A stretch of 19,581 nucleotides of DNA from Methylobacteriaceae bacterium. GTDB lineage: Bacteria > Pseudomonadota > Alphaproteobacteria > Rhizobiales > Beijerinckiaceae. Both the position numbers and the translations under genes were made by a program. This document shows positions 3,855-9,234 of this stretch, one piece after another. The first letter of the stretch is position 1. The number at the start of each line of letters is the position of its first letter. The stretch covers positions 1 to 19,581 of the forward strand of contig JAISTL010000133.1 in assembly GCA_031272615.1 (NCBI GenBank), read 5' to 3'. Below the pieces are notes generated by a model. That model saw only the letters and a list, made by a program, of their open reading frames with translations, was not told where the DNA came from and made no database searches.

Positions 3855-5195
3855 ATGGAACTCGCAATTATAAACGGAACCGTTGTCTCGCATCTGGGCA
3901 GGTACAAGGCTGATATCGCCGTCGCCGACGGAGTCATCACGGCGCTTGTCAAACCCGGCGGTTTACGAACCGGAGAGGCCCGAACAGTTATCGATGCCGG
4001 GGGGCTGTTTGTTTTGCCAGGTTGCATCGAAGCGCACTCCCATTTCCGGGAACCGGGTCATGAATACAAGGAAGACTTCTACACCGGATCAATGGCGGCG
4101 GCGGCCGGCGGCATTACAACGGTTTTCGAAATGGCCAACACCAAACCTCTGGCGGACGGCCCAAAGGAAATACTGGATAAGATTGCTTTGATTTCGGGGC
4201 GCAGCTTCGTCGACTATTGCCTGCACGGATTGGTGACAAAAAGAAACATCGGGCGTCTGACGGAAATGCTCGCTGTCGGAGTACGAGGCTTCAAGGCGAT
4301 GATGAGTCTGTCGGCAATGGGCACGCCCACAGTCGATGACGGCGAACTGCTCTGCGCCTTGCGGGAACTGCAGAAGACAGACACGGTGCTGACCGTGCAC
4401 GCCGAGAACACAAGCATCGTCAATGTCGAGAAGCAACGCTTGCAGGATGCGGGACGCACGGATTGGAAAGCGCACATGGAATCCCGCCCTGTCATCTCTG
4501 AAATTGAGGCGATTACACGCGCCATTCTGCTGTGTGAAGAAACCGGCTGTCGGTTGCATATCGCCCACATCGCCGCGGGAAGATCCGTTGACATCATCCG
4601 GCGGGCGAAACACCACGGAATCCGCGTGACCTGTGAAACAGGCCCGCATAATCTCACGTTGACCGATGCCGATTACGAGCGCCTCGGGCCGTCGATGTTC
4701 ATGAATCCGCCGGTTCGCCCCATTGAAGACCAGAACGCGCTTTGGCAGGGAATTCGTGATGGCACGGTGGATATGATCAGTACCGATCATTCTCCCCACA
4801 GCGAAGAAGAAAAATTCGCCGCGAACAGTGTCTGGAAAACGAAATCCGGGTTGGCCGGCGTTGAAACGAGCGTTCCGGTGATGCTGACAACGGTCAACGC
4901 CGGAAAGCTGACGCTTGAACAGTACGTCAAAGTCTCAAGTTTCAATCAGGCGCATCATTTCAGGATATATCCCCGGAAGGGAGCGATACAGGTGGGTTCA
5001 GACGCGGATTTCACGATTGTCGACATGGGTAAAACCGGGATAATCCGCAAAGAGGATTTGAAGAGCAAAACCAAAGTGATGCCGTATGACGGATTCCACT
5101 ACACCGGCGCGCCGGTGTACACCATCATCCGCGGCAACATCGCGATGAAAGACGGAGTCGTCGATCTCTCGAAACGGGTCGGGCAACTGATTTGA
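3855..5195 (+). CDS. Cyclic amidohydrolase (dihydroorotase / hydantoinase / allantoinase family)
   Basis: A cytosolic metal-dependent hydrolase of 446 residues, normal for the family, expected to open a cyclic amide or imide ring. The start is fixed by AAGGAG (3841-3846), 8 bases before the ATG. All expected metal ligands are visible: H61 and H63 in EAHSHFREPG, K147 in GFKAMM as the candidate carboxylated lysine, H182 in VHAEN, H238 in HIAH, and D311 in STDHSPH. The stretch ETGPHNLTLT also matches the allantoinase/hydantoinase group. One oddity is the residue before the HxH motif pair: E59 replaces the commoner aspartate of D-x-H-x-H. No pyrimidine or purine genes are nearby. The neighbours are a TAXI importer and a hydroxyacid dehydrogenase, so a catabolic role on an imported cyclic amide is more likely than pyrimidine synthesis. 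Dihydroorotase, hydantoinase and allantoinase cannot be told apart by eye. Confidence 0.88.
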   Translation: MELAIINGTVVSHLGRYKADIAVADGVITALVKPGGLRTGEARTVIDAGGLFVLPGCIEAHSHFREPGHEYKEDFYTGSMAAAAGGITTVFEMANTKPLADGPKEILDKIALISGRSFVDYCLHGLVTKRNIGRLTEMLAVGVRGFKAMMSLSAMGTPTVDDGELLCALRELQKTDTVLTVHAENTSIVNVEKQRLQDAGRTDWKAHMESRPVISEIEAITRAILLCEETGCRLHIAHIAAGRSVDIIRRAKHHGIRVTCETGPHNLTLTDADYERLGPSMFMNPPVRPIEDQNALWQGIRDGTVDMISTDHSPHSEEEKFAANSVWKTKSGLAGVETSVPVMLTTVNAGKLTLEQYVKVSSFNQAHHFRIYPRKGAIQVGSDADFTIVDMGKTGIIRKEDLKSKTKVMPYDGFHYTGAPVYTIIRGNIAMKDGVVDLSKRVGQLI

Positions 5196-6366: not shown

Positions 6367-6815
6367 AAACCCTTGCATCGCTTTTCCCGGAGCAGCCCGC
6401 GTTTTTCGCGCCGCTTCGGGAACGGCGGCGAAGCCGGACACTTGGTTTTGTAAATATGGGCAACGTGAAATGAAGCGTCTGACGACGCTCAACTGTGCGT
6501 TCGAGTAACCTTCGAATGTGACGCCTCATGAGTGCTCGAAGGGCTCGGAAGTCACGAATCAATCGTGCCGGAAGAAAGGAAGAAGGAACAGATTTTCCAT
6601 CACACTCCCGCCAAATCCTTCGCGATCTATGAACGGCTGTACCCGGCTCTGAAAGACGCCATGCACGTTCTCGCCGACCACCAGTCCCCGCCGCAAGACC
6701 ATGCCCGTGTTCCGGGCCGGTGACCCAACGACGGACAACAGAAATGACGGGATGCCCCGCGCATCCGGTCAACCTTGGGTTTCCGCTTTACCGCAGCACG
6801 GGTTTGGCATATAAT
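6367..6815. other. Mostly non-coding stretch before the ATPase cassette
   Basis: There is no complete gene here. It contains a 6-bp hairpin AGCGTC/GACGCT (6474-6489, loop TGAC) and the short possible kinase remnant listed separately. Several 8-9 base words recur in the non-coding stretch 19261-19530 (GGGCTCGG, GTGCCGGAA, TTCCATCAC). It looks like decayed or recombined sequence. Confidence 0.5.
6532..6723 (+). pseudogene. Possible remnant of an FGGY-family sugar kinase C-terminus
   Basis: A 63-codon frame opens directly after an in-frame TGA (6529-6531) and ends at 6721-6723. Its middle reads SFAIYERLYPALKDAMHVLA. That strongly recalls the last helix of xylulokinase-like FGGY kinases, where a Y-x-x-L-Y-P-A-L pattern followed by a short L-A end is usual. 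The ATP-binding and sugar-binding parts of such a kinase (about 450 residues) are not present upstream, and no ribosome site is evident. I read it as a leftover of a deleted or interrupted kinase gene. A chance frame is the main alternative. Confidence 0.35.
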
Positions 6816-6854
6816 AACCTCGCAAATCTTAAATTCAACTTCAAATTTGCAAGG
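6816..6854. repeat. Palindromic repeat, copy A, upstream of and touching the ATPase start
   Basis: A 39-base AT-rich block whose arms CCTCGCAAAT (6818-6827) and ATTTGCAAGG (6845-6854) are inverted with one mismatch. Overall 14 of 18 positions pair about a centre at 6836. It matches copy B (8063-8101) at 35 of 39 positions, and the final 21 bases are identical. Its last bases, AAGG (6851-6854), sit 2 bases before the ATPase ATG and are the only ribosome-site-like sequence there. It may be an element end, an operator or an RNA hairpin. Confidence 0.85.
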
Positions 6855-6856
6855 AA

Positions 6857-8032
6857 ATGTCGCCCAAATATATCACCAGACTCGCTGAGGCGGATGTCGA
6901 CTACTCGCTGAAACACTTTCCCGTCACCGCGATTACGGGGCCGCGACAATGCGGAAAATCAACTCTGGCCAAACATCTGGCGGCGCGACACAACCGGTTT
7001 GTGTTTCTCGATCTCGAAAAACCCGAAGACCTGAACAAGCTTACTGACCCCTACCTGTTTTTCAGCACCGTGCAGGCGGACTTGTTCTGCATCGATGAAA
7101 TCCAGCGCAAGCCGGAGCTGTTTCCCGTTCTGCGCACCCTGGTCGACGAATGGTCACGACCGGGCTGTTTTCTGGTTCTCGGCTCCGCCTCCCGGGACAT
7201 GCTCAAACAGAGCTCGGAATCCCTGGCCGGGCGAATCGCTTATGTCCGGCTGTCGCCCTTCACTCTCACGGAAGCGGCGCACACAAACGCCTTCACCCTG
7301 GCGGCCTATATCGAGCGCGGCGGTTTTCCGCGCAGTTTTCTGGCCGCGGAAGCCAGAGCCTCCTTTCTCTGGCGGCAGAACTTCATCACCACCTTCCTGG
7401 AACGGGATTTGCCGCAATGGTCGGCGGTTCCGCCACCGGCGATGCGGCGGTTATGGCAGATGCTGGCCCACATCAACGGACAAACCGTCAACTATTCCGA
7501 GCTCGCCAATTCCTTGGCCGTCAGCGGCGCCACCGTCAAAACCCATATCGACCTGCTGGCGGGCACCTATATGCTGGACCTGGTGCCGCCGTGGTTTTCC
7601 AACATGGGCAAGCGGCTTGTCAAAGCGCCGAAAGTCTACATCACCGATTCCGGCATCACCGCCTGCCTGCTCGGCCTGCGCGGTTTCGAGGAGTTCATCG
7701 CCCACCCGCGCATCGGCGCCGCATGGGAACAGATTGTGTTGACCAATCTGCGGACGCACTTTCCCGACGCCGAATTCTACCACTACCGCACGTCGGCCGG
7801 CGCCGAAATGGATTTTGTCATGCGGCAGGGGCCGCGCCTGTTCGCCGTGGAATGCAAATTTTCACGGGACCCGAAACCCGGCCGCGGCGCTCATAACGCC
7901 ATTGAAGACATCCGCCCGGAGCACACCTTCATCGCCGTTCCCACCGCGACCGGCTGGCCGCTCACACCGGACATCAGCGTGGTCTCCCTCGAAGACCTGA
8001 CGACGCGCCTGCAGGAGCGACTGGCGAAATGA
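6857..8032 (+). CDS. ATP-binding protein, AAA_14 domain plus DUF4143
   Basis: A protein of 391 residues, the usual length for this two-domain family. The start MSPKYITR fits the family's typical opening. Walker A is GPRQCGKST (28-36), Walker B is LFCIDEIQ (76-83, D80/E81), and LGSASRD (108-114) is the sensor-like strand. These are followed by SLAGRIAYVRLSPFTLTE and YIERGGFPRSF. A winged-helix-like piece lies near 213-232 (YSELANSLAVSGATVKTHID). The DUF4143 end carries E317-x-D319 in GAEMDF and E332-C-K334, a PD-(D/E)XK-nuclease-like pattern. The family is widespread, often in many copies per genome, and its cellular role is poorly known. All visible motifs are intact, so it is probably functional. 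It is unrelated to the catabolic genes around it, and two palindromic repeats bracket it, suggesting a separately acquired cassette. Confidence 0.93.
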   Translation: MSPKYITRLAEADVDYSLKHFPVTAITGPRQCGKSTLAKHLAARHNRFVFLDLEKPEDLNKLTDPYLFFSTVQADLFCIDEIQRKPELFPVLRTLVDEWSRPGCFLVLGSASRDMLKQSSESLAGRIAYVRLSPFTLTEAAHTNAFTLAAYIERGGFPRSFLAAEARASFLWRQNFITTFLERDLPQWSAVPPPAMRRLWQMLAHINGQTVNYSELANSLAVSGATVKTHIDLLAGTYMLDLVPPWFSNMGKRLVKAPKVYITDSGITACLLGLRGFEEFIAHPRIGAAWEQIVLTNLRTHFPDAEFYHYRTSAGAEMDFVMRQGPRLFAVECKFSRDPKPGRGAHNAIEDIRPEHTFIAVPTATGWPLTPDISVVSLEDLTTRLQERLAK

Positions 8033-8062
8033 GCGGGTGGGAATACGGCAAACCGGTCAATC

Positions 8063-8103
8063 AACCTTACAAATCTGAAGTTCAACTTCAAATTTGCAAG
8101 GTT
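8063..8103. repeat. Palindromic repeat, copy B, downstream of the ATPase gene
   Basis: A 41-base near-perfect palindrome centred at 8083, with 18 of 20 positions pairing and AACCTTACAAAT at the left end matched by ATTTGCAAGGTT at the right. It begins 30 bases after the ATPase stop codon. It is the direct-repeat partner of copy A (35 of 39 identical). Because the element is palindromic, both strands of each copy can encode an N-L-A-N-L-K-type peptide, which is a by-product and not a gene. Confidence 0.88.
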
Positions 8104-8122
8104 AATGGATGCCGACCAGAAC

Positions 8123-8140: not shown

Positions 8141-8204
8141 CGTCTCGGCCGCACCTCGAAAATCCGTCCATACCCCCGATTCCTCCCAACCCGCAGCCAA
8201 AAGA

Positions 8205-8228
8205 AACCCCGGGGTCGCCCCCGGGGTT
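8205..8228 (-). terminator. Intrinsic terminator of the minus-strand operon
   Basis: AACCCCGGGG (8205-8214) pairs perfectly with CCCCGGGGTT (8219-8228) around a 4-base loop. Read on the minus strand, the 10-bp stem is followed by TTTCTTTT, and it lies about 29 bases beyond the tctC stop codon. The plus strand has TTCTTC after the stem, so it may also stop transcription coming from the ATPase side. Confidence 0.85.
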
Positions 8229-8256
8229 CTTCTCCTGTCATCCGGCGTGTCCGGAA

Positions 8257-9234
8257 TTACTGGACATTCTTGTTGTAGAGGTTGAGGCGCTTGATGGTGG
8301 CCAGCAGTTTGGTGTCGTCCTCCTCAAGATACTTGGCGAACTCTTCGGGGCCCATCCATGTCGGCAGGTCACCGATTTTGGCCAGTGTTTCGAGATAGGT
8401 CGGGTCCTTGGTCGCCGTTTCAATGGCCTTGACCAGGATATCCTTGACCTCCTTCGGAGTTCCCTTGGGAACCACGAAGGAACGCCACACCTGCCCGGTC
8501 GCGTCGTATCCCGATTCCTTGAAAGTCGGAATTTCCGGATAAGCTTCGAGGCGGGTTTCGTCCAACACGCCGAGAACACGCAGATTGCCCGCCTTGTATT
8601 GGCCGTACGCCTCAGACGGATGGATCACACCGGAATCGATGTGGTTGCCGACCAGAGCGGTCAAAACGCCACTGCCGCCATCCTTGAACGGCATGGGCTG
8701 AACCTTGATGCCCGCCTTCTCGAAAAACAGTTCGATCGGCAGGTGGGTGCCGCCGCCGACCGCCGCGACGCCCAGAGTCAAGGCGCCGTCTTTTTCCTTG
8801 GCGGTCTTGACATAGTCATCAAGGGTCTTGATGGGCGAGGCGCTGTTGACGACCAGGAACACCGGCACCTTCAGGAACAGGCAGAGCGGATCCAGATCCT
8901 CACGGGTATACTCCAGCCCGCCGTAGTGAATCTGGTGGATTAAGCCGGTATTGTTGATGAGACCGACGGTGTAACCGTCCGGCCGCGAATGGGCGACGAA
9001 GCTGGTGCCGATGGTGCCCGAACCGCCGGCCTTGTTGGTGACGATGACCGGTTTGCCCAGTTCCTTCTCCAACGGACTCACCAGAGTACGGGCAATGATG
9101 TCGGAACCGCCGCCCGCACCCCACGGCACGACAAGCGTGATGGGCCGTTGCGGAAAATCCGCCGCCGATGCCGGCGCCGCGACGCCAAGCGACACCGCGC
9201 AGGCCGCCGCGAAAAGAGTGACGAGTTTATTCAT
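8257..9234 (-). CDS. tctC: Tripartite tricarboxylate transporter substrate-binding protein (TctC/Bug family)
   Basis: A periplasmic binding protein of 325 residues, normal for the family, which hands a carboxylate to TctA and TctB. AAGGAG lies 7 bases before the ATG. A clear signal peptide (LFAAACAVSLGVAAPASA) is probably cut before ADFPQRP. The mature protein opens with PITLVVPWGAGGGSDIIART and contains NKAGGSGTIGTSFVA, both hallmarks of Bug/TctC proteins. The two loops that bind the ligand carboxylate via backbone groups are therefore present, but the family binds many different acids. It is the last gene of the operon, 35 bases after tctA and followed by a strong terminator. The gene order B-A-C differs from the often-seen C-B-A. 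Confidence 0.93.
   Translation of the reverse strand: MNKLVTLFAAACAVSLGVAAPASAADFPQRPITLVVPWGAGGGSDIIARTLVSPLEKELGKPVIVTNKAGGSGTIGTSFVAHSRPDGYTVGLINNTGLIHQIHYGGLEYTREDLDPLCLFLKVPVFLVVNSASPIKTLDDYVKTAKEKDGALTLGVAAVGGGTHLPIELFFEKAGIKVQPMPFKDGGSGVLTALVGNHIDSGVIHPSEAYGQYKAGNLRVLGVLDETRLEAYPEIPTFKESGYDATGQVWRSFVVPKGTPKEVKDILVKAIETATKDPTYLETLAKIGDLPTWMGPEEFAKYLEEDDTKLLATIKRLNLYNKNVQ

Follow-up and report, generated by a model that had tools for sequence, protein, structure and literature searches.

A palindrome before a PDC-S01-type ATPase gene as a probable operator read by the gene's own protein

The palindrome that precedes an AAA_14/DUF4143 ATPase gene in a Methylobacteriaceae bacterium is likely a DNA operator of two half-sites, recognised by the protein that the gene itself encodes and probably controlling the gene's own promoter. 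The gene lies in a 19,581-nucleotide stretch of contig JAISTL010000133.1, here called the window, and is flanked by two palindromic repeats. An earlier interpretation, made from the letters alone (the sequence-only reading), offered three options for the repeats: the ATPase could move or maintain them, they could be its binding sites, or another enzyme could move the unit. The second option is the best supported of the three, by co-variation between protein and DNA. Computation shows that the dyad is conserved, where it lies, how it stands to the promoter and that the co-variation is specific.

Results

Two palindromes flank the ATPase gene

The matching repeats reported by the sequence-only reading were borne out. 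Positions 6816–6854 and 8063–8101 are 90% identical (35/39), and the repeats belong to two dyads of 41 nt each (Table 1): dyad 1, centred on 6836, keeps 14 of 18 symmetric pairs, and dyad 2, centred on 8083, keeps 18 of 20. The half-site TTNAACTTCAAATTTGCAAGG has three matches in the window at up to three mismatches, against none in 200 shuffles, and dyad 1 reached p = 0.005 against shuffles of its own region, the lowest value attainable with 200 shuffles. With the window's sites kept out of its construction, a weight matrix gives the two dyads 32.8 and 30.8 bits and the next position in the window 5.3. Elsewhere in the 2.6 Mb assembly (78% complete) the half-site found no further match at up to three mismatches, which leaves the two dyads as the only copies in the host assembly. 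An Rfam search returned nothing at gathering scores, and PHROGs and NCBIfam searches gave no match. The inverted GGCAT/ATGCC pair that the sequence-only reading placed just outside the repeats is indeed present, but we see no meaning in it: GGCAT overlaps the TATAAT box and occurs outside the left dyad edge (within 14 nt) in only 2 of 91 relatives.

Table 1. Positions of the features discussed in the text
Feature	Position	Strand	Basis or remark
Sigma-70-like promoter, TTTACC-17-TATAAT	6787..6815	+	Consensus scan, 10/12 matches
Dyad 1, proposed operator	6816..6856		Directly before the ATPase start codon; like elements in relatives
AAA_14/DUF4143 ATPase, 391 aa, PDC-S01 type	6857..8032	+	Pfam; PADLOC E 1.6e-85
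AAA_14 ATPase domain, residues 22–139	6920..7273	+	Pfam
Winged helix-turn-helix, residues 193–262, third helix 224–236	7433..7642	+	AlphaFold2 model
Residues 223–225, inferred readers of dyad positions 5–7	7523..7531	+	Co-variation
PD-(D/E)XK-like domain, residues 286–361, with D319, E332, K334	7712..7939	+	Model and conservation
Residues 313–316, turn between two strands	7793..7804	+	Model; 313/314 inferred readers of dyad positions 13/16
Dyad 2, rare extra copy	8063..8103		30 nt past the ATPase stop codon

Pfam confirmed the flanked gene as an AAA_14/DUF4143 ATPase, with bit scores of 137.2 for DUF4143 (PF13635) and 92.2 for AAA_14 (PF13173) at gathering cut-offs of 28.1 and 27. Seven PDC-S01 models of PADLOC match the protein (best E 1.6e-85) and place it in the same protein family, and we regard it as a candidate phage-defence ATPase with a predicted PD-(D/E)XK nuclease. 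In the AlphaFold2 model (mean pLDDT 95.3), residues 193–262 form a putative winged helix, so named from the order of its structural elements; residues 223–225 open the third helix, and 313–316 make a turn beside D319. The PD-(D/E)XK motif is a catalytic signature. Here D319 and K334 are invariant and E332 is kept in at least 90% of 64 sequences, and the strand order in the model agrees with a D..ExK arrangement. Such catalytic residues would not be needed by a pure repressor, and their retention counts against one. None of the 50 Foldseek matches listed exceeded a TM of 0.42 to the query. The alignment to the archaeal AAA+ ATPases SSO1545 (2fna) and PABY2304 (2qen) ends near residue 273, so the PD-(D/E)XK part lies outside this likeness.

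Two further observations concern the surroundings of the gene. Upstream, a plus-strand frame (6532–6720) that reads ...FAIYERLYPALKDAMHVLADHQ resembles the C-terminus of a sugar kinase of the FGGY type and is presumably a gene remnant. On the minus strand, a terminator-like hairpin of 11 pairs (8204–8229) lies 3' of the minus-strand gene at 8257–9234.

The upstream palindrome recurs in relatives

Relatives were drawn from three sources: eight homologues of 39–47% identity from 397 genomes of the window's order; 80 loci from GTDB genomes, the best of 505 that were confirmed, whose record titles span many phyla; and 16 loci on viral contigs, obtained by protein search with an alignment. With the window protein as sole query, the viral contigs yielded no relative. 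Left out were L104 and L107, which are copies of L103's locus, and L113 and L114, which lie at the same place as L112; with duplicates removed, the comparison set held 101 loci, the window and 100 relatives.

Tested against its own shuffles, the start region carries a significant palindrome (p ≤ 0.05) in 69 of the 101 loci, and in 40 at p ≤ 0.01, whereas the region after the stop codon does so in 9 of 96. The best palindrome centred at most 60 nt before the start scores at least 0.70 in 61/101 loci; other bins near the start hold 1–6 such loci each, apart from the adjoining outer bin with 12, and the first bin past the stop codon holds 11 of 96. In 32 of the 101 loci the shuffle test showed no significant palindrome with the automatically assigned start codons. 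A second copy of a locus's own dyad after the gene was found in three of the 101, namely the window (35/41 matches), L095 (33) and, inverted, L047 (28), and the upstream dyad is non-significant in both L095 (p 0.71) and L047 (p 0.14). By these counts, 69/101 at the start against 9/96 after the stop with three self-repeats there, the upstream palindrome is the conserved part of the arrangement, and the window's second dyad is, compared with its relatives, unusual.

This bears on the view that the gene is a mobile or excisable cassette bounded by two dyads and moved by the ATPase or by another enzyme. The copies at or just after the stop codon in the window and L095, and more weakly in L047, would suit it, and those gene-free dyads described below that lack gene remnants could be its scars. 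However, a downstream copy was missing in 98 of the 101 loci (in five because no sequence past the stop was available), the ORF list shows no transposase beside the window gene, as the sequence-only reading had already remarked, and no loss from dyad to dyad was seen in the Thermus, Rhizobium or G397-genus comparisons. We consider such a cassette very unlikely, and the comparison does not support repeat ends that bracket the gene as a general plan.

The commonest form of the dyad has its centre at –19 (22/76 loci), resembles ATCCTTGCAAATT-centre-AATTTGCAAGGAT and has the AT of the start codon as its last bases; the distance from centre to start varies and is mostly –19, –11 or –33. Tandem upstream dyads occur in L044 (34 matches), L081 (32), L013 (29), L111 (28) and L042 (27), where their order before the ATPase gene resembles an operator array. 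Searches with the dyads of other loci gave mostly 17–25 matches and at most 32. An exact half-site search of viral and genome contigs found no match, because relatives share the architecture and the outer arm and not the whole sequence. Paralogues within one genome likewise carry differing dyads (four each in G678 and G458). In a wider DUF4143 sample (26 of 28 matches, the window and L256 being left out), a strong upstream palindrome precedes 6 of 26 genes, against 1.3% of 619 control windows, and five of the six are unlike the window's type in sequence.

Some loci show features of their own. Two other DUF4143 genes of the window's assembly, L005 and L006, have unrelated palindromes of their own 12 nt before their start codons. 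In the 1.9 Mb genome G458 the ATPase profile matches 22 times at E ≤ 1e-10, in some cases to fragments or to copies with stops. In L062, a very long palindrome (30-pair score) that is unlike the dyad runs from the ATPase stop codon on and is probably a REP- or MITE-like repeat.

Protein residues co-vary with bases of the dyad

We compared 69 proteins and their dyads column by column; to reach this set, the distant loci L109–L112, L115 and L116 and loci with neither G-14 nor C+14 had also been left out. Residue–base couplings of 0.27–0.36 were found at 225×6, 225×5, 223×5, 224×7, 313×13 and 314×16, against maxima of 0.12–0.17 in 20 permutations. The pairs 316×17 and 229×4 stayed below the permutation maximum and 214×8 lay just above it; residue 316 is hinted at as a reader of base 17. 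Base 13 also couples above the maximum to L51, P354, G103 and more columns, as expected because of shared descent. The pairings amount to a chemically plausible residue-to-base code: K225 goes with G in 25/28 half-sites and P225 with A in 34/36, and N314 goes with A (14/14), D314 with C (6/6) and A314 with T (67/70).

Among nearest neighbours, base 6 is shared in 60 of 72 cases with the same residue 225 and in 12 of 66 with a different one (Fisher p 6e-15, on half-sites that are non-independent). Between distant pairs (<42% identity), base 16 is shared in 204/216 with the same residue 314 and otherwise in 297/1078. As a control for ancestry we used a tree built without the contact regions. Among the columns scanned on this tree, 225 ranked first for base 6, 314 first for base 16 and 313 first for base 13; base 7 has residue 365 in first place, 225 second and 224 third, and base 5 has residue 87 first, 225 second and 223 fourth. 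The pair 224×7 is weak on the tree (11.9 coincident changes against 8.5 expected, sd 2.0). Cross pairs, 225×16 for instance, lie at or below expectation. Differences among the dyads of relatives track protein residues, mostly beyond shared ancestry.

The code was then applied to held-out loci. In the first set it called 131 of 170 bases correctly, compared with 116 for the nearest neighbour and 86 for the majority; 20 loci had given a site and 17 passed the filter (L117, L119 and L173 failed), six of the 17 being rhizobial with 0.81–0.83 identity to a training locus. In the second set (eight loci) the respective counts were 59, 41 and 28 of 80, although at 314×16 the code was right in 9/16 and did worse than the nearest neighbour (11/16). 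Thirteen loci had been read for this set, of which L263, L264 and L273 were already in earlier sets and L266 and L270 were left out for lack of a convincing dyad; the dyad of L262 is weak (0.60).

Across the sites, symmetry persists while the sequence changes. In 62 anchored sites, selected on the outer motif only and not for symmetry, positions 4–8 pair in 42–50 of 62, with shuffle maxima of 30–38, and positions 1–3, 9 and 10 stay within the shuffle maxima. Symmetry score, integer centre and position had been the selection criteria for the palindrome sets of 76 and 69; in the 76, symmetry exceeds all shuffles at positions 4–8 and 12–19, and not at 1, 2 and 9–11. This pattern fits two reading heads.

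Another host regulator might in principle read the dyad, with the ATPase merely the regulated gene. The base changes follow residues of the ATPase itself, though, and dyads differ between paralogues of a single genome, which makes a separate regulator highly improbable.

Position relative to the promoter

In the window the predicted promoter ends at 6815 and dyad 1 begins at 6816; dyad 1 would therefore cover the predicted transcription start (+1 and leader). With a promoter just upstream of the dyad, the window is atypical as judged against the other loci. A TANNNT box stands exactly 6 nt before the start in 28/101 loci (other gaps, at most nine loci), and SD-like motifs are found in 14/101, compared with 14.6% of 588 control windows, which is no enrichment. 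The box and the background level of SD-like motifs together indicate a leaderless geometry in those 28 loci. The right arm is more TATAAT-like than the mirrored left arm (37 to 13, p 0.0009), with an even count in the –33 class (3 to 3). Two candidate plans, a leaderless promoter inside the dyad and the window's own promoter–dyad arrangement, were rejected as universal plans, neither being universal among the loci.

A transcribed dyad could also fold into a hairpin within the mRNA leader and so mask the start codon. The window's predicted transcription start lies inside dyad 1, so that a leader would carry part of the hairpin, and G.U outnumbers A.C among imperfect pairs. Yet this excess is non-significant (57 to 41, p = 0.13), so the mismatches are not clearly RNA-like, and in 28/101 loci the –10-like box at 6 nt from the start implies leaderless mRNA. 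We hold the RNA hairpin to be highly improbable.

Dyads without the gene and comparison of loci

An outer-arm pattern was searched blind over 385 genomes of the class. It matched 23 sites in 20 genomes, and the reversed control pattern matched 6 genomes. Fourteen sites were symmetric (37 nt long with at least 4/7 free pairs) and the other nine were not. Directly downstream of nine of the 14 lies a DUF4143 ATPase, in one case a remnant and in one frameshifted; the other five have no DUF4143 ATPase in the stretches read. A tblastn search of these five stretches found no convincing remnant, the best match (E 0.006) being in L170, some 1.8 kb away from the site. An ATPase homologue at E ≤ 1e-10 was absent from G539 and G769, which carry gene-free blind sites, and from G842. 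The tie between repeat and DUF4143 gene that the sequence-only reading envisaged accordingly holds for nine of these sites and, in the stretches read, not for the other five. Dyads can stand alone, which counts against the simplest operator reading.

Solo dyads would be expected if the protein were a homing-like or selfish nuclease. The dyad would then be its cleavage site, the gene would spread into or beside such sites, solo dyads would be empty or vacated, and the window's copies would flank a recent arrival. The five gene-free sites, two of which lie in G539 and G769, and the gene-free dyad of G842 are in line with this, as are the conserved D319, E332 and K334, whose active site adjoins the base-reading turn, and the patchy distribution of the gene (9/397 genomes of the order, window included).

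Comparison of loci yields similar hints. In the G397 genus, all 10 of 10 loci compared return to a conserved right flank at L014 2661–2672, the stop codon being at 2662–2664. In the G241 genus, where 69–75% identical copies stand elsewhere in seven genomes among the matches listed, similarity ends at L017 2688–2691 in five of the seven matches listed, and the dyad's outer edge is 2691. Both favour homing, but where identity is 74%, an edge of similarity may reflect no more than the extent of selective conservation. The G187 genus (2 genomes) offered no comparable site. As to empty sites, which the sequence-only reading had suggested looking for, G842, the nearest relative, lacks the gene and keeps the orthologous dyad; the right flank begins at the stop codon, the left end is inexact and two exact ends were not found. 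The G842 dyad has lost symmetry and 127 nt, which had no match in the comparison, replace the ORF, a state that fits gene loss equally well.

On Thermus and Rhizobium plasmids the gene lies among insertion sequences and near replication genes, and its boundaries differ. The Thermus positions 3903 and 5305 of L117, the locus of the Thermus thermophilus HB8 homologue, were rejected as element ends, insertion sequences being present at the L122 junctions; we read the other Thermus junctions likewise as insertion sequences. With Rhizobium L121 (dyad start 3911) as the reference, L127, L128 and L132 become similar from 3865 on, L130 from 3873 and L131 from the dyad edge at 3912. In the Rhizobium ruizarguesonis plasmid L128, positions 4808–4955 retain the dyad, followed by roughly 21 codons of an ATPase gene that is otherwise deleted. 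Neither Thermus, the Rhizobium plasmids nor one genus of the window's order yielded an element with exact ends on both sides. These comparisons show turnover and a unit of dyad plus gene, whatever the manner of its movement. Homing is weakened further by the missing clean ends in Thermus and Rhizobium, by the L128 dyad being a deletion remnant, and by the intact site beside the gene, where cutting would be expected; we judge it unlikely.

Discussion

A self-read operator accounts for a dyad that is conserved at the gene's own promoter and for a specificity that tracks the dyad sequence, with exceptions. In each half-site, the winged-helix residues 223–225 would read the inner arm, about 4–8 bases from the centre, and the PD-(D/E)XK hairpin residues 313–314, perhaps with 316, would read the outer arm at about 12–19. 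The site overlaps or abuts the promoter in this model, so that binding of a dimer would block RNA polymerase, and repression would hold the candidate defence gene low until ATP turnover or a trigger releases it. From the sequences we infer binding itself as well as repression, the trigger and the defence role. The window's second copy after the stop could serve as an additional binding site, for looping, or have arisen by duplication.

REP elements with RAYT transposases, and PATE elements, also combine palindromes with a neighbouring DNA-processing gene. Unlike these, the present locus has no transposase, and its own assembly shows only two copies. A further parallel is offered by autoregulated defence and toxin-antitoxin operators of the AbiEi kind, which are alike in the proposed self-operator; in the accessible part of one report, AbiEi, a protein of the system, binds inverted repeats at its own promoter (PMC7319586). 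In contrast to AbiEi, the repressor proposed here would be a single ATPase-nuclease in which a hairpin of the nuclease domain reads bases.

According to the part of the source available to us, PDC-S01 is the fourth most common defence system across prokaryotes, candidates of this type are ATPases fused to PD-(D/E)XK that were found by guilt-by-embedding, and validation is pending for most candidates found in this way (PMC12988326). The main text of that paper contains none of the terms 'palindrom', 'inverted repeat', 'operator' or 'promoter', and the literature on DUF4143, AAA_14, COG1373 and PDC-S01, mainly what is openly accessible, gave no description of a palindrome or DNA target. Now that a cognate DNA site and its contact residues are predicted, the biochemistry of PDC-S01 becomes directly testable, with regard to binding, cutting and off-control.

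Tentatively, PDC-S01 proteins might be ATPase-nucleases programmed by sequence: each would target a private palindrome kept at its own promoter, through a simple residue-to-base code to which winged helix and nuclease hairpin both contribute. This palindrome would then serve as an off-switch and possibly as a cleavage or homing target, and families would diversify and so avoid cross-talk. We see this wider proposal as possible, though doubtful. Finally, TT_P0211, an AAA_14/DUF4143 gene of Thermus, is listed with a value of 6.6 in an expression-change table for cells with plasmid DNA present, in the part of the report available (PMC4406477).
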